Of a stretch of 14,456 bases of DNA, positions 1,998 through 14,456 are shown piece after piece. The number at the start of each line of letters is the position of its first letter. Position 1 is the stretch's first letter. Both the position numbers and the translations under genes were made by a program. The notes under the pieces were generated by a model that saw only the letters and a program-made list of their open reading frames with translations, did not search any database and was not told the origin of the DNA. The stretch is from Actinomycetota bacterium. GTDB taxonomy: Bacteria > Actinomycetota > Humimicrobiia > Humimicrobiales > Humimicrobiaceae. The stretch lies in NCBI GenBank assembly GCA_018897225.1, contig JAHILC010000087.1, positions 1 through 14,456 of the forward strand, written 5' to 3'.

Positions 1998-2189
1998 TTA
2001 AAGGCTGCTTACTATGGTCTGAAATACGGATTGAAGCTTGTCTCCAAGCGTTGTTACAACTGCTATGCAAACAATCACAACAAGAGCAATATAAAGTGCC
2101 ATTTCTATCAGAGTTGCTCCCTTTTTATCACCTGCAATATATGCAATACATGCTGCAATTGATCTTGAGAATCTTTTTTGCTTTTTCAT
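1998..2189 (-). CDS. flp: Flp-type pilin, major pilus subunit
   Basis: The product is 63 residues. A basic leader ends at Gly24 and is followed by ATLIEMALYIALVVIVCIAV, so cleavage would leave a mature peptide of about 39 residues with Glu at +5. This is the Flp/Fap pilin signature, although the usual Tyr after the Glu is Met here. The hydrophobic helix is followed by the short polar tail (GDKLQSVFQTI) normal for Flp1-type subunits. Position between tadC and tadE supports the call. The ATG has the strongest Shine-Dalgarno in the operon (AAGGAGAG, 5 nt spacing), consistent with a subunit made in excess. A 45-nt gap separates it from tadC, where most neighbours overlap; I saw no terminator or clear promoter in it. 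Confidence 0.93.
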   Translation of the reverse strand: MKKQKRFSRSIAACIAYIAGDKKGATLIEMALYIALVVIVCIAVVTTLGDKLQSVFQTIVSSL

Positions 2190-2234
2190 TTTTCTCTCCT
2201 TACTATTTTTTATTTTTTAAAGAATCCAAATAAA

Positions 2235-2960
2235 TTAAAAAAGTATTTGTAGTTGCGGAATTACTGGTATTAAAAAAAGTGCAATAACAGGAATAAAAAT
2301 GAAAATAAATATTACTATAATTAAATTGCTTTCCAGTTTTTCTGCTTTCATTTTTAAAAAATCTCTCTGGTTTTCTCTCATAACTCTTGATAAATCCTTT
2401 AGAATATCTTTTACAGGATTGCCGATTATCTCGGATTGGGCCAGAACTTTAATTAAGTTTTTAAATTCGCTGCAGAATGAAAGTCTTGCAATAATATTAA
2501 AAGCTTCGGGCTTGCTATGCCCCTCTAAAATCTTTGTATGAAGCATCCTGAAAAGCTTGCTTGTTTCGCTGTTATAATTTCTGGAAATATAAGTCATTGC
2601 CTCATCAAGAGTCAGTCCTGCTTTAATCAAGGAAGAAAGCATATCTACAATATCAGGAAGCTCGCCAAGTATCTTTTTTCTTATAATTAATATTTTGTTT
2701 TTAATAACTTCTACAGGTAAAAGATAAAAGATAATAGCCGACAGAAGAGAATAGAGAATGAAATTCTTTCCAAATAAAAAACCTGAAAAAATAAAAATAA
2801 TTGCTGAACTAAAAGCTAAAATCAACCTTACGTGTATCAACCCTTCAATAGAGCTTATCCTGATTCCAAGCACTTTTATTATCCCTTGATCTTCAAATAA
2901 AAGAGCCAGATCCTGGGCAAGGCTTGTATTTTTTATATTGCCTGGCAAATTCAGTTTCAT
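2235..2960 (-). CDS. tadC: Tad pilus platform protein TadC (GspF/T2SSF family)
   Basis: A 241-residue inner-membrane protein. Two hydrophobic segments lie at about 43-83. Then comes a cytoplasmic T2SSF-type domain (about 100-205) beginning LGELPDIVDMLSSLIKAGLTLDEAM, which is typical of TadB/TadC platform proteins, and a C-terminal hydrophobic hairpin (about 211-240). In Tad systems TadB and TadC form the platform on which the TadA ATPase drives pilin insertion. The ATG overlaps the tadB stop by 4 nt (ATGA), with GGAGAGGG upstream. It is somewhat shorter than many TadC proteins, but all expected parts are visible. The TadC rather than TadB assignment follows gene order (A-B-C). Confidence 0.88.
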   Translation of the reverse strand: MKLNLPGNIKNTSLAQDLALLFEDQGIIKVLGIRISSIEGLIHVRLILAFSSAIIFIFSGFLFGKNFILYSLLSAIIFYLLPVEVIKNKILIIRKKILGELPDIVDMLSSLIKAGLTLDEAMTYISRNYNSETSKLFRMLHTKILEGHSKPEAFNIIARLSFCSEFKNLIKVLAQSEIIGNPVKDILKDLSRVMRENQRDFLKMKAEKLESNLIIVIFIFIFIPVIALFLIPVIPQLQILF

Positions 2961-3934
2961 TTTAAGCCACTGCCCTCTCCTGTTAAATTAACTAACTTGT
3001 TGATCAGCAAAATTCCAATAAAGTAGCTGACAGCAGAGTAAATTAAAATAAGCAACCCTACTTTCGACAATAAATTTTCCAGAAAATTCTTATTAATAAA
3101 AGAAGCTATTAGAAGCGAAATTATAGGTATAACCATAATGATATATGAAGTATATTTTGGACCTGAACTCAATATCCTTATATAATTGCTGATGCCTTTC
3201 TTTTCCCTTGTATACTCAATCTGGCTTTTTAAGAATTCAATCAAATCAACACCTTTTTCATTGGCAGCAATAAAACCCATCAAAGTTATTCCAATTATTT
3301 TACTTCGGCTTCTTTTTATCATTTTTTCCAAAGCCGCATTTAACAAAACACCTTTTCTGGTATCATTGATAACTGTTTCAAATTCCTTCTTTAAAGGGTC
3401 CTCAGCATTTTCTGTAGTTTTTTGAATGGCAACAAGAACATTTGGTGTTGCATATAAATTTCCTACAAGATCAATTAAAAAACTTTCCAGTTGGTCTTCC
3501 TTTCTGGCATTTTCCCTCCGGCCACGCAAGTTTATGAAAATAAAAATTAAAACCAGGCAAAAGCTCCCAAGCAGCAAAGATAATAAGATACCTTGCTTTA
3601 AAAAGAGGCCAGGGATGATAATTGCAGAAACTAAAATCGAAATAACAATTAAAAAAGTTCTTGCATCCATATTTATAGAATTACTTTTAAGCCAATCTTC
3701 AACCATACAAACAACTGATCTTGCTTTCCTTTTTTTCCCACCCCAACTCCCACTCCGATCCCCAGCGCCATAAATGTCGCTAAAAAAATTGTCCTCGAGT
3801 TTAGCGCTGCTGCCATATCGAGTCAATCTTTTTATGATGTCTCTTTTCCTTTCTACAAAATACAGGGAAAGGCTGCTAAATATGTATAAGAAACCAAGAA
3901 TTATAATTGCAGTAATTGTTATAGACAGCTTAAT
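2957..3934 (-). CDS. tadB: Tad pilus platform protein TadB (GspF/T2SSF family), probable non-standard start
   Basis: An inner-membrane platform protein partnering TadC. The first ATG/GTG/TTG in frame is a TTG at 3826 (289 residues), but the frame stays open upstream to a TGA just above position 3934. The 36 added codons encode a transmembrane segment and basic stop (SITITAIIILGFLYIFSSL, then ERKRDIIKR), which is how TadB proteins normally begin. The best-placed initiator is ATT at 3934, with AGGTG 7 nt upstream; CTG at 3928 is the alternative. I therefore extended the gene, giving about 325 residues, the usual TadB size. The extension overlaps tadA by 16 nt. Further on there are two hydrophobic segments (about 90-125 in the long form), the T2SSF domain (EDQLESFLIDLVGNLYATPN onward) and a C-terminal membrane hairpin. 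The family is secure; the exact start is not. Confidence 0.85.
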   Translation of the reverse strand: MKLSITITAIIILGFLYIFSSLSLYFVERKRDIIKRLTRYGSSAKLEDNFFSDIYGAGDRSGSWGGKKRKARSVVCMVEDWLKSNSINMDARTFLIVISILVSAIIIPGLFLKQGILLSLLLGSFCLVLIFIFINLRGRRENARKEDQLESFLIDLVGNLYATPNVLVAIQKTTENAEDPLKKEFETVINDTRKGVLLNAALEKMIKRSRSKIIGITLMGFIAANEKGVDLIEFLKSQIEYTREKKGISNYIRILSSGPKYTSYIIMVIPIISLLIASFINKNFLENLLSKVGLLILIYSAVSYFIGILLINKLVNLTGEGSGLK

Positions 3935-5109
3935 TTGTAATCACCTGCCTCGTTTAAATGCTTATCGACTAGTACTATTTCACTGATTTTCCTGTTTTTT
4001 ATGTTCAAGTTTTCATCTTTTTCACATTCCAGAAATAAAACCGTATCAATTGCTCTTGATACTATTTTTTTAACCACGCTGCTGCTCAAGTTAGACTTGT
4101 ATTCCATTGCAAGCATTTCAAGCCTGAGCAGCCCATCATAGGCCGAATCAGAATGTATGGTACTGAAACTTCCACGATGTCCCGTATTTAATGCCTGAAG
4201 CATTTGATAGGCAGCCATGCAATCTCTTACCTCACCTACAATAATTCTATCTGCCTTCATTCGGAGAGTTTCGTAGACAAGCCTATCCTGGCTAATATCA
4301 TTATCTGCTTCCCTTGATTTTGGCCTTGTTGTCAGCATCCTTACGTACGGATGGCTACCCAGTTTAATTTCAGGCAAGTCCTGAATTATATTAATGATTT
4401 CACTTTTGGGTATTAATTTTGCAAGCGTGTTAAGCAACGTAGTTTTGCCTGAACCCATTGAACCTGCAATTAAAATATTTTTTTTATCCTGAATCAAGCC
4501 CTTAAGTACACTAAATATCCCGTTGTTAAACATTCCGAGCTCAAGTAAATCCTGGAGCTCAAAATCAAGGCAGTTAAAAACTCTTATAGATATATAAATC
4601 CTGTCAGAGACAGGCGGAATTACTATCGAGCATCTGCTTCCATCATAAAGCTCAGTGTTTAAAAATGGCATTCTCTGGTCAACAGTCTTGCCAGAGCTTG
4701 CTTTAATGCGATCAATTATCAATAGTACTTCATCGATACTGCCAAATACTTCCCCCAGATACTTCTTTTCACCATTACTTATCACAAGCATTTCCCTGTC
4801 TTGAATAAAAATGTCAGTTACTTTCTTGTCTGAAAGATATTTTTCCAGCACTCCCAGGCCAAATATTTCAGAAATAGCATATTCCAGAAAATCCTGGCTT
4901 ACTTCGAACTCAAGCAATGGAAATCTTCTATAAATTTCACTATTTATAAGCATGAATAATTTGTCTTTGTATTCTGCCCTGTTGAGTGAAAAAGGGTTCA
5001 GGAAATCCTTATCATTTTTAACTTTATCCTTAACAGCAGTTATTATTTCTTTTTCCTGTTCGGGATTAAATATTTGATTTTTATCCAATAACCTATCTTT
5101 TAAGCTCAT
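3919..5109 (-). CDS. tadA: Tad pilus assembly ATPase TadA/CpaF (type II/IV secretion ATPase)
   Basis: A cytoplasmic hexameric motor ATPase that powers Flp pilus assembly through the TadB/TadC platform. In 396 residues it shows an N-terminal domain (about 1-120), Walker A GSMGSGKT (216-223), an acidic box IIQDLPEI (241-248), Walker B RIIVGEVRD (288-296) and the histidine box TGHRGSFSTIHS (309-320). The upstream stretch DRIKASSGKTVDQRMPFLNT, with DGSRCSIVIPP after it, is typical of the CpaF/TadA branch of VirB11-like ATPases. All catalytic motifs look intact. Its ATG overlaps the stop of the upstream ParA-like gene by 4 nt, and its 3' end overlaps the proposed tadB start, so it sits in a tightly coupled operon. 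Confidence 0.95.
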   Translation of the reverse strand: MSLKDRLLDKNQIFNPEQEKEIITAVKDKVKNDKDFLNPFSLNRAEYKDKLFMLINSEIYRRFPLLEFEVSQDFLEYAISEIFGLGVLEKYLSDKKVTDIFIQDREMLVISNGEKKYLGEVFGSIDEVLLIIDRIKASSGKTVDQRMPFLNTELYDGSRCSIVIPPVSDRIYISIRVFNCLDFELQDLLELGMFNNGIFSVLKGLIQDKKNILIAGSMGSGKTTLLNTLAKLIPKSEIINIIQDLPEIKLGSHPYVRMLTTRPKSREADNDISQDRLVYETLRMKADRIIVGEVRDCMAAYQMLQALNTGHRGSFSTIHSDSAYDGLLRLEMLAMEYKSNLSSSVVKKIVSRAIDTVLFLECEKDENLNIKNRKISEIVLVDKHLNEAGDYKLSCL

Positions 5110-5891
5110 CCTTGATTTCCGTTTAACCTGGATAGTATTTTGCTTAGCTGCTTATAAAGCCTTGTTTTAAAAATCTTATTTTTATTAAATACAAAAAGAG
5201 ACTTGTCGTATCTTGGGTCGTAAGATATAAAAGCTTCTACGGGAAAGTCTGCAATTTTTGCAAAATCCCATATTTTAAAAAGCTTAAATAACTTCTTTTT
5301 ATTAATAATGACTTTGATTTTATCTTTTGAAATGGCGAATTTCTCAGTTAAAATACAAAACAGGCTTGAAATTCTTGAAAAGCTTTCGAGAGAATGCTCA
5401 CTTACAAGCAAGATAACATCTGATAGCCTTAAAACATCAAGAAGAGTGCCATTAATTACTGTCTGAGTATCTATAACAATACAGTCATATTCGCTGGTTA
5501 AGAACTTAAAAAGCCTGTGCACATCTGTTTCTTTTATCCTCTCAGCAACTAATGGATCTGAAACACCTTTCATAACATCGAGGTTTTTAAAAATATTCTT
5601 TACATAATACCCAAATTTTTCCGGAAACCTTAAGGCTAGTTCAAAAGATTTTTCAGATTCAATGTCAAAAACTGCTCCAAAATCACCAGGCGAGCTATCA
5701 ACTTCCAGCAGCAAAGTCCTCTTATGCAGCTCTTTTGCAAAACATAATCCTGCAGTTATGGCAATTGAAGTTTTTCCTGCTCCGCCTTTATTGGAAATCA
5801 CGGAAATTATGCAGCACTCTGGATTTTTAGCAGGAAGGACTTTATTATTTTTCAACTCAAGGTAGCTGTCAATAATTACAAGATTTTCCAT
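5106..5891 (-). CDS. ParA/MinD-family ATPase of the tad locus (TadZ-like)
   Basis: A 261-residue P-loop ATPase with a complete deviant Walker A motif, KGGAGKTS (35-42), including both the signature lysine and the canonical P-loop lysine. It is followed by LLEVDSSPGDFG (61-72) and a Walker B-like CIVIDTQ (137-143). There is no receiver-like N-terminal domain, only about 28 residues before the ATPase fold. Proteins of this family in Tad clusters (TadZ/CpaE) help place the pilus machine at a cell pole or membrane site; this is inferred from the family, not visible in the sequence. It lies between cpaB and tadA and overlaps tadA by 4 nt. The operon also encodes a longer CpaE-like protein with a degenerate Walker A, so this may be the active ATPase partner of an inactive or weaker paralogue. 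Confidence 0.85.
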   Translation of the reverse strand: MENLVIIDSYLELKNNKVLPAKNPECCIISVISNKGGAGKTSIAITAGLCFAKELHKRTLLLEVDSSPGDFGAVFDIESEKSFELALRFPEKFGYYVKNIFKNLDVMKGVSDPLVAERIKETDVHRLFKFLTSEYDCIVIDTQTVINGTLLDVLRLSDVILLVSEHSLESFSRISSLFCILTEKFAISKDKIKVIINKKKLFKLFKIWDFAKIADFPVEAFISYDPRYDKSLFVFNKNKIFKTRLYKQLSKILSRLNGNQG

Positions 5892-5905
5892 AAAATTTAT
5901 TAACC

Positions 5906-6649
5906 TTAATTTTTTTCCACAATAATTTTGTATTTATCTTCTTTAGTTATACGTGAAATAAGCGGGGCTTCTTTTATACTGCATTTGATATAAATATAAT
6001 AGGTGTCTTTACTGTTGTTTGAGATTACATTTTTTTCCTTATTTGCAATTTTTTTAATTTCAACTATCTCAAGGTTCCTAATAACTATCTGGCTGCTTAC
6101 TACTACTATCTTTTCAGAAACCTGTAAAACATCAGAATTAAGATAATTATTTTCAGCATTGCTGTCTTTCAATCCTTCATCGGTGGCTGAATTGTTATAA
6201 TAAAATGAATTTGCAAGATCCTTATCCATCTCAGTTGAGACAATTGAAATAGTACTGCCTTTTTTAAGCTCATCAAGTATCGGCTCCGGGTAGCTTACAT
6301 TTAAAGCCAGCAGAACTTCCCCTTTTTTCAGGCTGTCAGTAATGCTTTGGTTTGGGTTTTCCTCAAAAATATCATTTGTTATCGGGTCATCTTTCTTTCT
6401 ATCAATCATCACAACTTTTCCAATTAAATCCGATTTTTTAGTTAAATAATTCTTGGGAAGAGCTGACTTTAAATAAGTCCTGATGCAAATATCGGCGTCG
6501 CTTATAAAATCTCCTGCGCTTAAATCTTTGGCAGCAACTATTATTTCCTGCCTATCCAAATAATTGCTTAAAAAAAGATAAGTCCCAGCTCCGATAATTA
6601 GCGCGCCGATGACTGCAAGCCATAAATATTTTTTATAGGAAAAGTTCAT
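5906..6649 (-). CDS. cpaB: Pilus assembly protein CpaB/RcpC (SAF domain)
   Basis: A 247-residue protein with an N-terminal membrane anchor (about 8-29) and then a SAF domain: EIIVAAKDLSAGDFISDADI (35-54) and LIGKVVMIDRKKDDPIT (75-91). This is the layout of CpaB/RcpC proteins, which act at the cell envelope in Flp pilus assembly or secretion. A second conserved block follows (EVLLALNVSYPEPILDELKKGSTISIVS, about 111-138). The stretch at about 145-175 is rich in Asn, Ser, Asp and Tyr and looks like a low-complexity insertion. AAGGA overlapping the cpaE stop codon serves as ribosome-binding site for its ATG, 13 nt downstream. No secretin (CpaC/RcpA) gene is adjacent, which may mean a single-membrane envelope or that it lies elsewhere. 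Confidence 0.85.
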   Translation of the reverse strand: MNFSYKKYLWLAVIGALIIGAGTYLFLSNYLDRQEIIVAAKDLSAGDFISDADICIRTYLKSALPKNYLTKKSDLIGKVVMIDRKKDDPITNDIFEENPNQSITDSLKKGEVLLALNVSYPEPILDELKKGSTISIVSTEMDKDLANSFYYNNSATDEGLKDSNAENNYLNSDVLQVSEKIVVVSSQIVIRNLEIVEIKKIANKEKNVISNNSKDTYYIYIKCSIKEAPLISRITKEDKYKIIVEKN

Positions 6650-6662
6650 TTAAAAAATATCC

Positions 6663-8039
6663 TTAATCATATGTTAATAAATCAAGAACCTTGTTAGTTA
6701 AATTTCCAAAGTTTTTTAGAACATCAAAATTGAAGTTGCTAAAATCAGTTCTACCATTCAAAAAATTATCTTCTTCAAGAAAGACGAGTTCCTTCAAATT
6801 AAAAAACTGCCTGAGCTGATTTTTTGTATATGTAAGCCCGTTGCCATTTCGCGTTCTGTTTATTACCAGTATTTTTTCGAGGTCTTCGTAAATAAACCTG
6901 TTATTGATACTTATAAGCCTGCCGATGCTGCCCAGCGTGTTATCAGATATCATTATTACAAGATCAGCTATATCAAGAACGCCAAGATACATTTCATTAA
7001 TAAGGTTTGGCAGGTCAAAAATAATTAGATGGTATTTTCTTTTAGCAATATCAATTAAGCTGTAAATATCCTGGAGATCCATTTTCTTTGCCAGCTCATA
7101 AGTAGGAGGAGGTTGAAGCAAATCAAAATTTTCTGCAATTTTTACTATGGCATTGTCCATGGCACTCCTGTTGTAACCTTCTGTAAAAACAATCATATTC
7201 GGGGATTTTGGAATGTTTAAATAATATCCTGTATCGCTTCCACCTTCGGAGAAATTCAAATCAACCAGCAGGGTTTTCATCTTCCTGAAAGTATGAGCAA
7301 GAAATATTGAAAGGATAGTGCTGCCTACACCGCCTTTTGCTTTTGTAAAAATTATTATTTTTTGTTTTATAGCCTTTGTGTTTTTATTAATGTTATTTTC
7401 TTCTGCAATATTGTTTTCTTCCTTAATGTTGTTTTCTTCTGCAATATTACTTTCTTCTGCAAAGTAATCTTCATCCTGGGTTAAAGGTTTTTCAGAATTG
7501 GCTGGTTCAGTTCTTTCAGTACCTGGTAAAATATGATTTGGGCTGGACTTATTAACCTTAACTGAGGGTTTATTTATATTAACTGGAGGTTTACTTATAT
7601 TAGTCAGAGGTTTACTTATGATGCGGTTTTTTGATCTAAAAAGACCTGCAAAGCTGTCTTTAATTCCCAATCTTTTCTTTTGGGATTCTTTGCCGGTTTT
7701 TATTTCTAATTCTCTTGCCAGTAAGCTCTCGACTTCTGCAGCTTCAAGAGGGCACTTGAGATCTTTCCCTATTATATATACCTTAGACTTCTTTTTAGCG
7801 GCTTTTTTGGTAATTTCTTCAGTATTTGGAATTTTCCTGCTTAAAATCAAAATGTCTACTTTTTCATATTCCAGAATAAAGTTTACCGCAAATTCACTGC
7901 TTAGGTTTATAAAATTGAAGTCTCTTTTTATCTGAGAAACTGTCTCAAAAGTTTCCCAATCCACATCCGCCACAATGACATTTAATCGACCTTCAAATTC
8001 ATTTAACAGATTGTTTTTTACAAAAAGTCTTTTATTCAT
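6663..8039 (-). CDS. cpaE: CpaE/TadZ-like protein with degenerate Walker A and repetitive linker
   Basis: First gene of the tad operon, 458 residues. The N-terminal part (about 15-115) looks like the receiver-like domain of CpaE/TadZ: alternating strands such as LNVIVADV and VDILILS, with KVYIIG later. A long low-complexity linker follows (about 137-225). The C-terminal MinD/ParA-type domain (about 226-458) carries AKGGVGSTIL, in which the canonical P-loop lysine is serine, then TLLVDLNFSEGGSD (256-269) and HLIIFDLPN (337-345). Loss of that lysine is common in CpaE/TadZ proteins, which bind nucleotide atypically. It probably localises the pilus machine. The ATG is preceded by TTTCTCTCC, so there is no Shine-Dalgarno, although promoter and frame clearly point to this start. 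The separate canonical ParA-like protein two genes downstream makes a pair of MinD-family proteins in one operon. Confidence 0.85.
   Translation of the reverse strand: MNKRLFVKNNLLNEFEGRLNVIVADVDWETFETVSQIKRDFNFINLSSEFAVNFILEYEKVDILILSRKIPNTEEITKKAAKKKSKVYIIGKDLKCPLEAAEVESLLARELEIKTGKESQKKRLGIKDSFAGLFRSKNRIISKPLTNISKPPVNINKPSVKVNKSSPNHILPGTERTEPANSEKPLTQDEDYFAEESNIAEENNIKEENNIAEENNINKNTKAIKQKIIIFTKAKGGVGSTILSIFLAHTFRKMKTLLVDLNFSEGGSDTGYYLNIPKSPNMIVFTEGYNRSAMDNAIVKIAENFDLLQPPPTYELAKKMDLQDIYSLIDIAKRKYHLIIFDLPNLINEMYLGVLDIADLVIMISDNTLGSIGRLISINNRFIYEDLEKILVINRTRNGNGLTYTKNQLRQFFNLKELVFLEEDNFLNGRTDFSNFNFDVLKNFGNLTNKVLDLLTYD
7389..7457 (-). repeat. 18-nt tandem repeat in the cpaE linker
   Basis: About four units encode a six-residue repeat of the form EE(S/N)NI(A/K), residues 195-217 of the CpaE-like protein. 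Units are nearly identical at DNA level (TTTTCTTCTGCAATATTG type on the plus strand), so copy number could change by slippage without breaking frame. The product is an acidic, Asn-rich, presumably disordered segment just before the ATPase domain. Confidence 0.8.
7536..7619 (-). repeat. 21-nt tandem repeat in the cpaE linker
   Basis: Four units encode a seven-residue repeat (I/V)(S/N)KPxx(N/K), residues 141-168: ISKPLTN, ISKPPVN, INKPSVK, VNKSSPN. It is basic and Pro-containing, the opposite charge to the acidic repeat that follows. The units are diverged at DNA level, so this repeat looks older than the 18-nt one. Confidence 0.8.
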
Positions 8040-10654: not shown

Positions 10655-10683
10655 GCTATTTTAATAGAAAAGCTTGGAAAGCT
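10655..10683. repeat. 29-bp direct repeat (pfkA 3' end), second copy of 9269-9297
   Basis: These 29 bases, covering the last pfkA codons, the stop and six bases beyond, are identical and in the same orientation at 9269-9297. The two copies lie 1,386 bp apart and flank the M50 protease gene. Identity ends abruptly on both sides. Confidence 0.9.
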
Positions 10684-11695
10684 CATACAGGTCAAGGTCC
10701 ATAGGCTTTCGCTCTGTCAATGCTTTTTCCAGCGGCACTGCAGTAATTTTTCCATTATTCATCACTACAAGATTTCCAAATTTACCTTCATGAATAAAAT
10801 CAACGGCAGTTGCCCCCAGCCTTGTTCCAAGCAACCTGTCAAATGCAGTGGGCTTTCCGCCTCTCTGAAGGTGCCCCAGCACTGTCACCCTGCATTCAAA
10901 TCCAGTCCTTTTTTCCAGCTCATCGGCGATGGTTTTACCAATGCCGCCAAGCTGCACGTGGCCAAAATTATCCACTGTATCGCTTGCGCAAATAGGACCC
11001 TCACAATTTGCAGGTTTTGCTCCTTCCGCAACAACAATCATGCTGCTGTTGGCTCCTCTTTCTTTTCGGGCTTTGAGCACATTTACTATTTCATTATAAT
11101 CAAAATCAACTTCAGGTATAAGAATGACATCTGCACCCCCTGCGATTCCGCCGCACAATGCAAGCCATCCTGCATCCCTGCCCATAACTTCAACAATCAT
11201 TACCCTGTTGTGTGAAAATGCGGTGGTATGAAGCGCATCAATTGCATTAGTTACTATTTCAAGTGATGAATCAAAACCAATAGAATAATCGGAATATGCT
11301 ATGTCATTATCAATAGTTTGCGGTATTCCTACTCCTTTTATACCGTATTGTTTGCTGAGCTTAAACATTACGCCGTTCGTATCATCTCCGCCAATGGTGA
11401 TAATTGCATCAAGGGCAAACTTGGCGATATTTGCTTTTACATTTTCAACTCCATTTTCTATTTTAAAAGGATTGGTTCTTGATGTGCCAATTATGGTGCC
11501 GCCTATTGCAAGTATTTGCGCAACATCCTTTCTTTCAAGCTCGGCAGCATTGCCTTTTACAAGGCCTTCCCAGCCATTTCTGATTCCAACCACTGTATAT
11601 CCATAGTGCTGGGATCTTACAAAAATTGCCCTTAGCGCTGCGTTGATCGCAGGAGAATCTCCACCGCCTGTTAATACACCAATTCTTTTAATCAT
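10661..11695 (-). CDS. pfkA: 6-phosphofructokinase, phosphoryl donor uncertain
   Basis: A cytoplasmic glycolytic enzyme phosphorylating fructose 6-phosphate at C1. All family blocks are present in 344 residues: GVLTGGGDSPAINA (6-19), GGTIIGTSR (65-73), IGGDDTNG (101-108), PQTIDND (125-131) with the catalytic Asp, VEVMGRDAGWLAL (168-180), and GHLQRGGKPTAFDR (274-287). Donor choice is usually read from two sites. GGDDT, with Asp as the second acidic residue, is the pattern of PPi-dependent and actinobacterial-type enzymes, against GGDGS in E. coli-like ATP enzymes. PPi enzymes, however, have Lys in PKTIDND and E. coli has Gly, whereas this protein has Gln126. ATP versus PPi therefore cannot be settled. 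The ATG has GGGAG 9 nt upstream. A partial, decayed second copy lies about 1.3 kb away. Confidence 0.95.
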   Translation of the reverse strand: MIKRIGVLTGGGDSPAINAALRAIFVRSQHYGYTVVGIRNGWEGLVKGNAAELERKDVAQILAIGGTIIGTSRTNPFKIENGVENVKANIAKFALDAIITIGGDDTNGVMFKLSKQYGIKGVGIPQTIDNDIAYSDYSIGFDSSLEIVTNAIDALHTTAFSHNRVMIVEVMGRDAGWLALCGGIAGGADVILIPEVDFDYNEIVNVLKARKERGANSSMIVVAEGAKPANCEGPICASDTVDNFGHVQLGGIGKTIADELEKRTGFECRVTVLGHLQRGGKPTAFDRLLGTRLGATAVDFIHEGKFGNLVVMNNGKITAVPLEKALTERKPMDLDLYELSKLFY

Positions 11696-11829: not shown

Positions 11830-11857
11830 TTGACATACTGTTATTTTGATGCATAAT
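11830..11857 (+). promoter_or_regulatory. Promoter of the truncated transposase gene
   Basis: TTGACA (11830-11835), a 16-nt spacer and CATAAT (11852-11857). Transcription would start near 11865, downstream of the ATG at 11846 and upstream of the ATG at 11891, which supports the latter as start. The -35 box overlaps the candidate left terminal repeat, a common arrangement in insertion sequences. Confidence 0.5.
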
Positions 11858-12299
11858 TTCCTTATAATAACATTTTATCAAGGATATGAAATGAATTATA
11901 AGGAATTTTTAAAGAAGTTTCCAGATGAAAAGTCTATAATAGATTATTTCATCAAGATAAGATACCCAGAGGGTATTAAGTGTCCAAAATGTGGTAATAC
12001 TAAAGTCTATCAAAAAAAAGCAAGACCAAAAGTATTTGATTGTAATTTTTGTGGTAATAGTTTTTCAATATTTAAAGACACAGTATTTGAAAAGACAACA
12101 ACCGATTTGCAAAAATGGTTATTTGCAATTTCGAAGTTTTTAAATGCAAAGAAAGGAGTGAGCGCAAAACAGCTTCAAAGAGAAATCGGAGTTACTTATA
12201 AGTGTGCCTGGAGAATACTGCACCAGATAAGAAAAGCTATGGCAGAAGAAAATCCGCAAGGATTTGCGAATGGACAATTTAGTGTTTGACCGTTTGTCA
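11831..12299 (+). mobile_element. Remnant or deletion derivative of an IS1595-family element
   Basis: The segment carries the N-terminal half of an IS1595-type transposase. It is bounded by a candidate 13-bp imperfect inverted repeat: TGACATACTGTTA (11831-11843) against the complement of 12287-12299 (TGACAAACGGTCA), 10 of 13 matching. The gene's stop codon falls inside the right repeat. I see no matching 8-bp target duplication at the borders, so the ends are tentative. Confidence 0.4.
11891..12289 (+). pseudogene. IS1595-family transposase, truncated before the catalytic domain
   Basis: The 132-residue product (from the ATG at 11891) begins MNYKEFLKKFPDEKSIIDYFIK. It then has a zinc ribbon, CPKCGNTKVY...FDCNFCGNSFSIFKDTVFE, and the helical region KWLFAISKFLNAKKGVSAKQLQREIG followed by TYKCAWRILHQIRKAM. 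These match the N-terminal zinc-ribbon and HTH part of IS1595-family transposases. Full-length relatives continue into a DDE-type catalytic domain whose first Asp lies just after this point; here translation ends at NGQFSV, so no catalytic residue remains. I found no continuation in another frame downstream. A second in-frame ATG at 11846 would add 15 residues, but 11891 has AAGGA 7 nt upstream and lies after the predicted transcript start. The product could still bind DNA, but as a transposase it is inactive. Confidence 0.85.
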
Positions 12300-12333
12300 T
12301 AATAATCCTTTCTTCTTGTTTAAAATAGTAAAC

Positions 12334-12362
12334 TTGACAAATTATTTAAGAATTGTTAAATT
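12334..12362 (+). promoter_or_regulatory. Plus-strand promoter upstream of a candidate small RNA
   Basis: A perfect TTGACA (12334-12339), a 17-nt spacer and TAAATT (12357-12362; 4 of 6 to consensus). It lies after the transposase stop and points into a stretch with no open frame that ends at the hairpin terminator at 12408-12435. Confidence 0.45.
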
Positions 12363-12368
12363 TATAAC

Positions 12369-12440
12369 AGAAATTGATAAGGAGCGACATTCCTAAAGGG
12401 ATTTCACAAAAAGCGACTTTAAAAAGTCGCTTTTTGCTTT
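12369..12440 (+). ncRNA. Candidate small RNA containing a complement of the tRNA anticodon arm
   Basis: Predicted from a promoter (TTGACA/TAAATT) and a strong terminator about 70 nt apart, with no ORF between. The RNA would hold a small stem-loop, AGGA-GCGACAU-UCCU, at 12380-12394. Its 7-nt loop is fully complementary to the anticodon loop (AUGUCGC) of the neighbouring minus-strand tRNA, and the 13 bases GGAGCGACATTCC are an exact copy of that part of the tRNA locus. No known RNA family is recognised. Transcription is inferred, not shown; the copy could instead be scar DNA from an integration or duplication. Confidence 0.3.
12408..12435. terminator. Strong bidirectional intrinsic terminator
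   Basis: A perfect 13-bp inverted repeat, AAAAAGCGACTTT (12408-12420) and AAAGTCGCTTTTT (12423-12435), with a GCGAC core and a T-run at the end on either strand. On the minus strand it lies 5 nt after the tRNA CCA end and would terminate tRNA transcripts. On the plus strand it would end the candidate small RNA. Confidence 0.85.
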
Positions 12441-12525
12441 TGGTAGGGCTGGCGAGATTCTAACTCGCAAGGGTTTCCCCAACGGAGCGACATTCCATCG
12501 CGTCTACCAGTTTCGCCACAGCCCC
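12441..12525 (-). tRNA. Class II, leucine-type tRNA with GTC anticodon (odd)
   Basis: The 85-nt sequence folds as a tRNA with encoded CCA: acceptor GGGGCTG/CAGCCCT (G1-U72 wobble), discriminator A73, D-arm GCG-AAACTGGTAGA-CGC, anticodon arm ATGGA-ATGTCGC-TCCGT, long variable arm TGGGGAAACCCTT, T-arm GCGAG-TTAGAAT-CTCGC. The long variable arm, GGTAGACGCG stretch and A73 are leucine-type. With U33 in place the anticodon is GTC (12489-12491), which would read aspartate codons. T-loop position 56 is A where C is nearly invariant, so the G19-C56 contact is lost. Other tertiary pairs (U8-A14, A15-U48, G18-U55) are possible. It has its own promoter and terminator and lies just downstream of gatB. 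It could be an unusual working tRNA, a tRNA with a non-ribosomal role, or a pseudogene. Confidence 0.75.
12484..12496. repeat. 13-bp repeat: tRNA anticodon arm, also at 12381-12393
   Basis: GGAGCGACATTCC at 12484-12496 (the minus-strand anticodon loop and inner stem) is repeated exactly and in the same orientation at 12381-12393. Flanking bases do not match. A 13-base exact match of mixed composition within about 300 bp of AT-rich DNA is very unlikely by chance. Confidence 0.85.
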
Positions 12526-12563
12526 ACGTATCTATATTTTTATTATATTAGATAATTTGGATT

Positions 12564-12592
12564 ATTATAAGATACAATATAATTATAGTAAA
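12564..12592 (-). promoter_or_regulatory. Promoter of the tRNA gene
   Basis: On the minus strand TTTACT (12587-12592) is followed after 17 nt by a perfect TATAAT (12564-12569). The start would be about 30 nt upstream of the tRNA 5' end. This would allow transcription independent of gatB. Confidence 0.5.
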
Positions 12593-12623: not shown

Positions 12624-14105
12624 TTATTTTAACTTTTTAAGCAATATTTCGTTTACAAGCTTGGGATTAGCTTTTCCTCTGGTTTGAGCCATTACCTGGC
12701 CTACCAGAAATCCTAAGGCTTTAACTTTGCCGCTCCTGAACTGCTCTACGGTCTCGGGATTTTCGCCTATGACCTTATCGATAACACTTTCAATCATACC
12801 CTCATCACTTATCTGCTCAAGGCCTTTACTTTCAATTATATTTTGAGGGTCAGCCCCGGTTGCAAACATTTCCTCAAAAACTGATTTTGCAATTTTTGAG
12901 CTTATTTTACCGCTGTCAATCATCTCCAGCATACAGGTGAGCTTTTCGGGTGTTATTTTTGATGCACTTATTAAAATACCTTCTTTGTTTAAAAGTGCGC
13001 TAAAATCACCCATCAGCCAGTTGGCCACGGTCTTTGCATTGCTATAAAGAGCGCAGCATTTTTCAAAATATTCTGCCAGATTCCTGTCTGCAACCAGAAA
13101 CCTGCAGTCATAAATTGAAATTCCAAATTGGGAGACAAACCTTGCGGTTTTTTCAAAAGGAAGCTCCGGAATTGCAGCCCTTATTTCCTTTACGGTACTT
13201 TCCTCAATATGCATTGGAACAAGATCGGGCTCAGGGAAATACCTGTAATCGTGAGCCTCTTCCTTTGAGCGCAGAGCTTTTGTCGAATCAGTAATGTGGT
13301 CATAGTGCCTGGTTTGCTGAATCACTTTCTTGCCTGATTCTAAAAGTTCAACCTGCCTTGCAACCTCATATTCAAGCCCTTTTTGCAAGAATTTAAAGGA
13401 GTTCATGTTTTTAATCTCCGCTTTTGTTCCGAGACCTTCAGTTCCTGCGAGCTTGACTGAAACATTAGCATCGCATCGCAGACTCCCTTCCTCCATGCTG
13501 CAGTCGCTAACATCAAGATATAGAAGCAAATTACGCAAGCTGATAAGGTACTCCTTTGCTTCTGCAGGCGAACCAATATCAGGTTCTGTGACTATTTCGA
13601 TAAGCGGCGTGCCGGCACGGTTGAAATCAACAATACTGGCTGCAGATTCGCTGATTCTTCCCGAAGTACCCGTATGGATAAGCTTGCCTGTATCTTCTTC
13701 AAGATGAACCCTGGTAATTCCAACTCTCCTGATATAATCGCCCATATCAACATCAAGATATCCCCTGCTGCTGATTGGTAAATCATACTGGGATATCTGG
13801 TAATTCTTCGGCATATCGGGATAAAAATAATTTTTCCTGTGAAATATTGAATAATTATTGGTCGTGCAGTTTAATGCAAGGGCAATTTTGATAGCATAAT
13901 CTATAGCCTTTTTATTAATAACAGGAAGTGTTCCGGGATGCCCAAGACAGACAGGGCATGTGCATGTGTTGGGATCAGCCCCAAAAGAAAGCTTGCAGCC
14001 GCAGAACATTTTAGTAGCTGTGGAAAGCTCCACGTGGGTCTCAAGCCCAATGACAGTTTCATATTTGCTATCAATTTTTTTATAAGTATCTTTTTGCTGG
14101 TTCAT
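12624..14105 (-). CDS. gatB: Aspartyl/glutamyl-tRNA amidotransferase subunit B
   Basis: GatB is the kinase/tRNA-binding subunit of GatCAB, which converts Asp-tRNA(Asn) and/or Glu-tRNA(Gln) to Asn- and Gln-tRNA using ammonia delivered from GatA. The 493-residue sequence has the classic blocks: TVIGLETHVEL (17-27), the zinc site Cys35-x-Cys37 with CTCPVC (48-53), FYPDMPKNYQISQYDLP, RVHLEEDTGKLIH, VDFNRAGTPLIEIVTEPD and EGSLRCDANVSV. A C-terminal tail domain (about 345-493) ends GFLVGQVMAQTRGKANPKLVNEILLKKL. Length is normal for the family and nothing is missing. It starts 12 nt after the gatA stop, so the two are co-transcribed, with no strong ribosome-binding site between them. Its presence implies an indirect route to Asn- and/or Gln-tRNA in this organism. 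Confidence 0.97.
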   Translation of the reverse strand: MNQQKDTYKKIDSKYETVIGLETHVELSTATKMFCGCKLSFGADPNTCTCPVCLGHPGTLPVINKKAIDYAIKIALALNCTTNNYSIFHRKNYFYPDMPKNYQISQYDLPISSRGYLDVDMGDYIRRVGITRVHLEEDTGKLIHTGTSGRISESAASIVDFNRAGTPLIEIVTEPDIGSPAEAKEYLISLRNLLLYLDVSDCSMEEGSLRCDANVSVKLAGTEGLGTKAEIKNMNSFKFLQKGLEYEVARQVELLESGKKVIQQTRHYDHITDSTKALRSKEEAHDYRYFPEPDLVPMHIEESTVKEIRAAIPELPFEKTARFVSQFGISIYDCRFLVADRNLAEYFEKCCALYSNAKTVANWLMGDFSALLNKEGILISASKITPEKLTCMLEMIDSGKISSKIAKSVFEEMFATGADPQNIIESKGLEQISDEGMIESVIDKVIGENPETVEQFRSGKVKALGFLVGQVMAQTRGKANPKLVNEILLKKLK

Positions 14106-14117
14106 TCTAATATTTAA

Positions 14118-14456
14118 CTATAACCCTTCAGGAATCTTATTAAATCCAAGTGCTTTTTCCAGGCTGTAAGCAGCCCTGAAAATATTATCTTCCCTTAAAA
14201 TATTACCGATTATCTGCAGGCCCATTGGGAGATTGTCCTTTGAAAGCCCGCTCGGTATTGAAATTGCAGGCAGGCCCGCAAGATTTACCGGAATTGTACA
14301 GATATCGGATAAATACATCGTCAGTGGGTCTTCAATTTTTTCACCAATTTTAAAAGCAGTCGTGGGAGATGTTGGCGAAATAAGCACATCGTATTTTTCG
14401 AAAGCCTTCCTGAAATCTTCAATAATAAGGGTCCTTACACGCTGGGCTTTTTCATA
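14118..14456 (-). CDS. gatA: Glutamyl/aspartyl-tRNA amidotransferase subunit A, C-terminal part (runs off window)
   Basis: The frame is open from the right edge to a stop at 14118, giving the last 112 residues of GatA, the amidase subunit that releases ammonia from glutamine for GatB. Visible are [65 protein letters not shown] and the end PMGLQIIG...[15 protein letters not shown], which match the GatA C-terminus closely. An internal ATG at 14387 is not a gene start; the homology continues upstream of it to the edge. The catalytic Ser-Ser-Lys residues lie outside the window. The gene directly precedes gatB. Confidence 0.95.

Follow-up and report, generated by a model that had tools for sequence, protein, structure and literature searches.

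The stretch of DNA analysed here, hereafter the window, comprises nucleotides (nt) 1 to 14,456 of contig JAHILC010000087.1 from the genome of an Actinomycetota bacterium (assembly GCA_018897225.1; 344 contigs, 83% complete). Between its gatB and pfkA genes lie a truncated transposase, a class II tRNA gene whose leucine-type body bears the aspartate anticodon GUC and, close to that tRNA, a short copy of its anticodon arm, flanked by a promoter-like site on one side and a terminator-like palindrome on the other (Table 1).

ARAGORN called a single tRNA, with anticodon GTC, at 12441-12525 on the minus strand. The Rfam tRNA model gave it 46.6 bits (cut-off 29, E 1.9e-7), the lowest score of the 22 tRNAs found in the genome (compare 53.9 to 73.9 for the other 21). 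Its stems are intact (acceptor 7/7 with a G1-U72 pair, anticodon stem 5/5, T stem 5/5), the D arm is of the leucine type, the anticodon loop reads AUGUCGC and the variable arm can pair as GGG-GAAA-CCC, while free folding of the bare tRNA favoured another structure by about 3 kcal/mol (−32.1 versus −29.2 for the cloverleaf). Position 56 is A, whereas C56 is found in the 34 other GTC class II tRNAs that we laid out and in at least 84 viral tRNA-Leu that we read. The leucine-type body with an aspartate anticodon reported in the original prediction is thus borne out by the ARAGORN call, A73, the D arm and the variable arm, and our layout confirms the missing C56, the intact stems and the encoded CCA. 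The covariance-model check proposed there gave a score well above the cut-off, and the proposed inventory of host genes yielded, besides the window tRNA, four normal tRNA-Leu and one ordinary class I tRNA-Asp(GUC); the window gene is therefore an extra one. The promoter and the terminator ascribed to the tRNA correspond in the sequence to a consensus match and to a terminator-like palindrome, respectively; promoter-like sites number 10 in the 1-kilobase (kb) region, where shuffled sequences have 5.1 on average.

Table 1. Features of the gatB-pfkA region, in window coordinates.
Feature	Position	Strand	Remarks
pfkA (Pfam PFK)	10661..11695	−	left flank of the insertion; adjoins gatB in relatives
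Truncated IS1595-type transposase	11846..12289	+	Pfam zinc-ribbon domain; reading frame stops at 147 amino acids
Promoter-like site TTGACA-17-TAAATT	12334..12362	+	second hexamer preceded by TG; putative promoter for the antisense RNA
Predicted antisense RNA, about 74 nt	12369..12442	+	ends inferred from the promoter-like site and the terminator
Antisense hairpin AGGA-GCGACAU-UCCU	12380..12394	+	holds the 13-nt copy; plus-strand RNA is the exact complement of the anticodon arm
Palindrome	12407..12436	.	terminator-like on the plus strand, by inference also for the tRNA strand
Class II tRNA gene	12441..12525	−	leucine-type body, A73, anticodon GUC, A56, encoded CCA
Anticodon arm AUGGA-AUGUCGC-UCCGU	12482..12498	−	anticodon GUC at 12491-12489; coordinates counted by hand
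Promoter-like site TTTACT-17-TATAAT	12564..12592	−	upstream of the tRNA; consensus match only, weak evidence
gatB (Pfam GatB_N, GatB_Yqey)	12624..14105	−	right flank of the insertion

We then considered how such a tRNA might be charged, its positions being numbered by hand from the laid-out sequence. According to passages of PMC9976931, leucine identity in E. coli relies on A73 and on tertiary contacts, among which G19-C56 is counted, and makes no use of the anticodon. By the rules given there, with A14 taken from the passage on mitochondrial leucine, the window tRNA has A73, A14, A15-U48, G18G19, A20a, G18-U55 and U54-A58, and carries GUC in place of a leucine anticodon NAA or NAG. Miscoding by a leucylated GUC tRNA, as first proposed, is compatible with these rules. 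The tertiary pair G19-C56 is absent (A56), and reduced, weak leucylation is therefore expected; the nine other tRNAs of the A73-GTC class described below have C56 and should be better leucine acceptors. In the same source the bacterial aspartate set is given as G34, U35, C36, C38, G10, G73 and G1-C72. The window tRNA has G34, U35, C36, C38 and G10, and phage contigs carry class II GUC tRNAs with G73, so that one may ask if it is aspartylated and merely an extra class II tRNA-Asp; since G73 and G1-C72 are missing (A73 and G1-U72 instead) and the host already has a tRNA-Asp(GUC), we find this highly improbable.

The functions listed in the original prediction (mistranslation, aminoacyl transfer, decoy or decay) were put forward without a second element that had been missed. 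At 12381-12393, 103 nt away from the anticodon arm, 13 nt of that arm recur exactly as GGAGCGACATTCC; the opposite strand forms a hairpin there whose 7-nt loop is complementary to the anticodon loop at every position. Of 3000 dinucleotide-preserving shuffles, 3 produced a match of at least 13 nt between the tRNA and the 250-nt flanks. Modelling gave an energy of −23.9 kcal/mol for the duplex of 13 bp and of −9.0 kcal/mol for the pairing of the 7-nt loops. On the plus strand the promoter-like site TTGACA-17-TAAATT, the hairpin with the copy and the terminator-like palindrome follow one another in this order, and the locus could thus encode, near the tRNA, an antisense RNA of about 74 nt, predicted to fold into a stem bearing the complement hairpin followed by the terminator-like hairpin. 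The latter should halt this RNA before the tRNA is reached, and the RNA would therefore need its own copy of the complement. An integrase attachment site was rejected as the source of the copy since, by eye, no tRNA 3' half follows it, and an imperfect 17-nt inverted repeat (12292-12308 / 12559-12575), one of several in this AT-rich DNA, was not used as evidence.

The copy can also be looked at from the tRNA strand. The queuosine enzyme acts on GUN anticodons, and the tRNA might be a decoy for that enzyme or for anticodon nucleases, the second hairpin being a further decoy. The 7-nt anticodon loop contains UGU, the minus-strand copy mimics the anticodon arm, and phage tRNAs have been proposed, in passages of PMC10264068, to counter anticodon nucleases. 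However, for the tRNA strand the copy lies beyond the palindrome, and in a comparable locus presented below (L523) it is the complement that lies on the strand of the tRNA, so that mimicry cannot account for the two loci alike; we judge a decoy very unlikely.

We propose instead that the locus would be a horizontally acquired two-RNA unit. The first RNA would be a phage-type leucine tRNA with GUC which, if leucylated, would place leucine at the GAC and GAU aspartate codons and harm the cell; the second would be the antisense RNA, whose hairpin loop is complementary to the anticodon loop. Loop-loop pairing, perhaps then RNase III cleavage, would keep the tRNA from decoding, and the pair would act like an RNA-only (type VIII-like) toxin-antitoxin system with the tRNA as toxin. 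This account builds on a tRNA of known structure and anticodon with a body foreign in appearance, on its place in an insertion, on the 13-nt copy with the promoter-like and terminator-like sites around it, and on the like arrangements found elsewhere; it supposes that both RNAs are transcribed, that the tRNA is charged with leucine and toxic, and that the antisense RNA neutralises it. A miscoding tRNA checked by base pairing would be the simplest single account, by analogy with the logic of RNA-RNA toxin-antitoxin pairs. For the window itself we give this reading somewhat less than an even chance, because A56 and the insertion sequence (IS) debris allow decay.

In the 22 relatives' loci that show both genes (28 were fetched), gatB and pfkA are 2-314 nt apart, compared with 928 nt here, and the extra DNA holds the truncated IS1595-type transposase and the window tRNA. 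The latter is 62.5-63.6% identical to the four host tRNA-Leu and 75% identical to phage-type tRNA-Leu with the same D arm; two GTC tRNAs, L124 and L521 (L numbers denote loci, G numbers genomes), rank in its top five out of 1256, to which the common anticodon contributes. Phage records gave five weak matches to the window tRNA, to tRNA-Leu and tRNA-Tyr, and seven to L124. The same tRNA, which the original prediction suggested might occur in relatives, was found neither by a DNA search of 34 relatives nor by ARAGORN, which called no tRNA at the gatB loci of 28 relatives; no other genome of the host genus came up in the searches. The wider gap, the IS debris, the phage-like body and the lack of a copy in the family are most simply explained by an acquired insertion, the tRNA region having been gained horizontally. 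The tRNA as passenger of an IS was also considered and dropped: only one other, partial transposase match exists in the genome, so the ends of such an element are not definable.

The same setting could nevertheless be that of a decaying phage-type tRNA-Leu left with IS debris, its anticodon and C56 having drifted, its stems being intact by chance and the 13-nt copy being a chance repeat or a recombination scar. The truncated transposase adjoins the tRNA, which occurs in no other genome searched and has the lowest tRNA score in its own, and no other tRNA examined at position 56 has A there. As to the signs of a pseudogene named in the original prediction, the score is not low, and no copy was detected in the host family. 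In contrast, decay explains poorly that all stems are intact and CCA is encoded, that so few shuffles give a 13-nt match and that antisense copies accompany two other tRNAs of the A73-GTC class. We regard it as a distinct possibility, though on balance a doubtful one.

A pattern for leucine-type tRNAs with GUC, which misses tRNAs departing from it, matched 25 times among 2.9 million viral contigs and 8 times among 84,980 genomes. Together with the window tRNA and L111, which came from an earlier pattern and was among the 80 of 98 stretches listed, they make a set of 35 tRNAs. Ten, all different, have A73 (the window tRNA, L089, L111, L124, L146, L520, L521, L522, L523 and L524), and 25 (16 distinct, 22 from viral contigs) have G73. 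The acceptor, anticodon and T stems are complete in eight of the ten, L124 and L146 having 4/5 and 3/5 anticodon pairs, respectively. At 21 of the 25 G73 loci, which are parts of contigs, ARAGORN called no other tRNA. When any anticodon without A35 was allowed, only the window tRNA and one GUG tRNA matched in 396 genomes of the phylum; the latter, L541 in G308, is also of the leucine type. Looser viral patterns added two GTC matches, L134 (odd anticodon arm) and L594 (broken acceptor stem by count), and no antisense match was found for either. Neighbours of the A73-GTC tRNAs include an Mrr-type restriction protein (L521) and a DUF3800 protein (L520), and a DUF3990 protein lies near the G73 tRNA L526, all of which is suggestive of mobile or defence islands. 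A link between the neighbour proteins of L524 and L089 was discarded, as they show no similarity.

A potentially silencing arrangement adjoins seven of the ten A73-GTC tRNAs. In L523, from a metagenome-assembled genome (MAG) of the Gemmatimonadales, the downstream sequence on the tRNA strand contains 18 nt that are perfectly complementary to the D-stem and anticodon arm; they are preceded by TTGACG-17-TAGACT and followed by a GC-rich stem, at which the terminator scan found no terminator. This predicted antisense RNA is found in 2 of 102 family genomes, L523's own included: G414 retains 40 of its 46 nt and both promoter hexamers unchanged, at a spacing of 17 nt by count, whereas the stem that follows has changed on both sides, and no tRNA was called by ARAGORN within the 3,045 bases read there. 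Such a case also suits a real pair that is no addiction module, the antisense RNA tuning the tRNA for controlled mistranslation or the tRNA being a sponge for an antisense RNA that acts elsewhere; the anatomy expected is the same as for a toxin-antitoxin pair, but a lone antisense RNA also fits an orphan antitoxin, and we consider the alternative unlikely. In L520, from a Phycisphaerae MAG, TTGACA-17-GATAAT begins about 15 nt after the tRNA and a terminator-like site then follows; the sequence matches the tRNA complement in register over 41 columns, with 12 nt exact, a diverged middle and 9 nt exact. Convergent TTGACA promoter-like sites are present at L521 and L522, where read-through of the tRNA could act as cis-antisense; L522 also has an upstream hairpin with the loop TTGTCAT. 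Finally, L089 and L124 are each flanked by inverted repeats of 11 nt, longer than those of any other of the 1239 tRNAs compared.

These features were compared with those of other tRNAs. Within 300-nt flanks, an antisense match of at least 12 nt on the tRNA's own strand was found for 4 of 1256 distinct tRNAs (L523, L520, L409 and L322), two of which are A73-GTC (18 nt in L523, 12 nt in L520), while the 13 nt of the window are on the opposite strand. Same-sense matches of at least 13 nt are commoner and, by our reading, are T-arm, 5' or 3' pieces; that of the window alone includes the anticodon loop. In the 150 nt downstream, a promoter-like site was present at 6 of 10 A73-GTC tRNAs (4 of 10 if 10 of 12 matches were required), 189 of 1223 overall, 11 of 258 at a GC content above 50% and 0 of 25 G73 GTC tRNAs (16 distinct). 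The hypergeometric values, all post hoc and with the ten included in the background, were 0.0015 for the promoter-like sites (6/10), 6e-5 for both longest flanking repeats falling in the A73-GTC group and 3e-4 for two of the four antisense tRNAs belonging to it.

Several observations weigh against a tRNA silenced by an antisense partner. In the window tRNA, A56 abolishes the G19-C56 contact, on which leucylation in E. coli depends in part, this copy without C56 may already be weakened or decaying, and its absence from the searched host family has been noted above. The L523 antisense RNA is found in 2 of 395 phylum genomes, L523's own included, and that of L520 was not found in the 37 further genomes of its order, whose matches are confined to the tRNA part. 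The antisense RNAs of the window, L520 and L523 show no likeness that we could see and differ in strand. L111, L146 and L524 are without any counted feature, as are the GTC matches L134 and L594. A looser complementarity scan (35 tRNAs, 140 tests) was led by L523, L111, L520 and the window, L111 through a neighbouring tRNA, and seven of the tests reached 0/60 shuffles, including those of L146 and of the G73 tRNAs L519 and L511. Promoter-like sites are common in AT-rich DNA (178 of 965 tRNAs at a GC content of 50% or less). In addition, the features were chosen after the window repeat had been seen, the group is small (n=10) and the statistics are post hoc.

With these points in mind, we suggest, with rather low confidence, that these loci may represent a new kind of RNA-only toxin-antitoxin system in which the toxin is a complete tRNA that would insert leucine at aspartate codons and the antidote, directed against this tRNA, is an antisense RNA, a convergent transcript or a flanking self-complement, a kind that would have arisen several times in bacteria and phages and would move between genomes. 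If so, cells would hold a weapon that alters the genetic code itself, restrained by base pairing at the anticodon, which would explain how unrelated bacteria can retain intact leucine-type GUC tRNAs without damage to their proteins. No tRNA toxin with an antisense antidote was found by title or abstract in the open-access literature, subscription journals being mostly outside this search.

Known systems share parts of this scheme. In the type VIII pairs SdsR/RyeA and CreTA both toxin and antitoxin are RNAs: SdsR and RyeA are mutually cis-encoded, each driving the degradation of the other (abstract of PMC6610125), and CreT acts on translation through tRNA sequestration (passages of PMC12737573). 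They differ in that the predicted toxin here would be the tRNA itself, and no CRISPR part was seen at this locus. The nematode nev-tRNAs resemble the window tRNA in their leucine-type class II body with non-leucine anticodons and are leucylated in vitro, no mistranslation being detected in C. elegans; unlike it, they are eukaryotic and read Gly(CCC) or Ile(UAU), and the abstract mentions no antisense RNA (PMC4300185). The allo-tRNAs are bacterial class II tRNAs with diverse anticodons, and passages of PMC7609411 list GUC both among the predominant 8/4-type ones and among those found once; one allo-tRNA pseudogene overlaps a transposon-related open reading frame (ORF). They have an 8/4 or 9/3 acceptor domain and serine identity, whereas the window tRNA is 7/5, leucine-type and A73. 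The B. cereus pseudo-tRNA tRNAOther is likewise an extra tRNA-like gene, located at a genomic island, poorly charged and with a role outside translation; in contrast, it is part of a longer regulatory RNA, and the passages of PMC3399842 mention no antisense partner.

Class II viral tRNAs with GUU or GUC and G73 are similar in form, with a leucine-type D arm and an Asn or Asp anticodon, but they are predicted Asn/Asp acceptors and their GTC members lack the downstream promoter-like site. Class II tRNAs that combine such a D arm with an Asn/Asp anticodon recur in viral contigs (loci L270-L348): among the 82 matches listed, at least 44 have GTT and at least 11 GTC (3 with A73). Forty GTT tRNAs were re-read with a second, slightly narrower pattern, hence the lower count: in every one, position 73 is G and the anticodon (5/5) and acceptor (7/7) stems are fully paired, and 37 have U1-A72. 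These viral G73 tRNAs look like class II tRNA-Asn/Asp. Some with GTC stand alone before a phage ORF, 21 nt ahead of a 733-amino-acid one in L303, L508 and L518, 22 nt in L335 and 11 nt in L509.

Other tRNA-like sequences were met in the viral contigs. Of 80 loci with the D-arm GTGGCGAAACTGGTAGACGC (L183-L260), 50 have no ARAGORN tRNA containing that arm; many resemble 5' tRNA-Leu halves, as at prophage ends, and others (L215, L233 and L247) look like tRNA-like elements whose middle part is unusual. Further phage elements of this tRNA-like sort, in which the D and T arms are good and the anticodon stem is poor (L146, L134, L160, L165, L282, L301, L316, L317 and L330), form, by eye, at least two recurring sequence families. 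In L111, a 78-nt tRNA-Ser(ACU), class I in size, was called by ARAGORN at 14066-14143 and adjoins the GTC tRNA. In the host genome, the last 21 nt of tRNA-Leu(GAG) (L023) and of tRNA-Ser(UGA) (L010) are repeated 149 and 31 nt downstream, respectively, like attachment-site scars. Elsewhere in the window, minus-strand genes at 1998-8039 resemble a Tad/Flp pilus cluster, with a Flp pilin, two T2SSF proteins, a T2SSE ATPase, a SAF-domain protein and an AAA ATPase.
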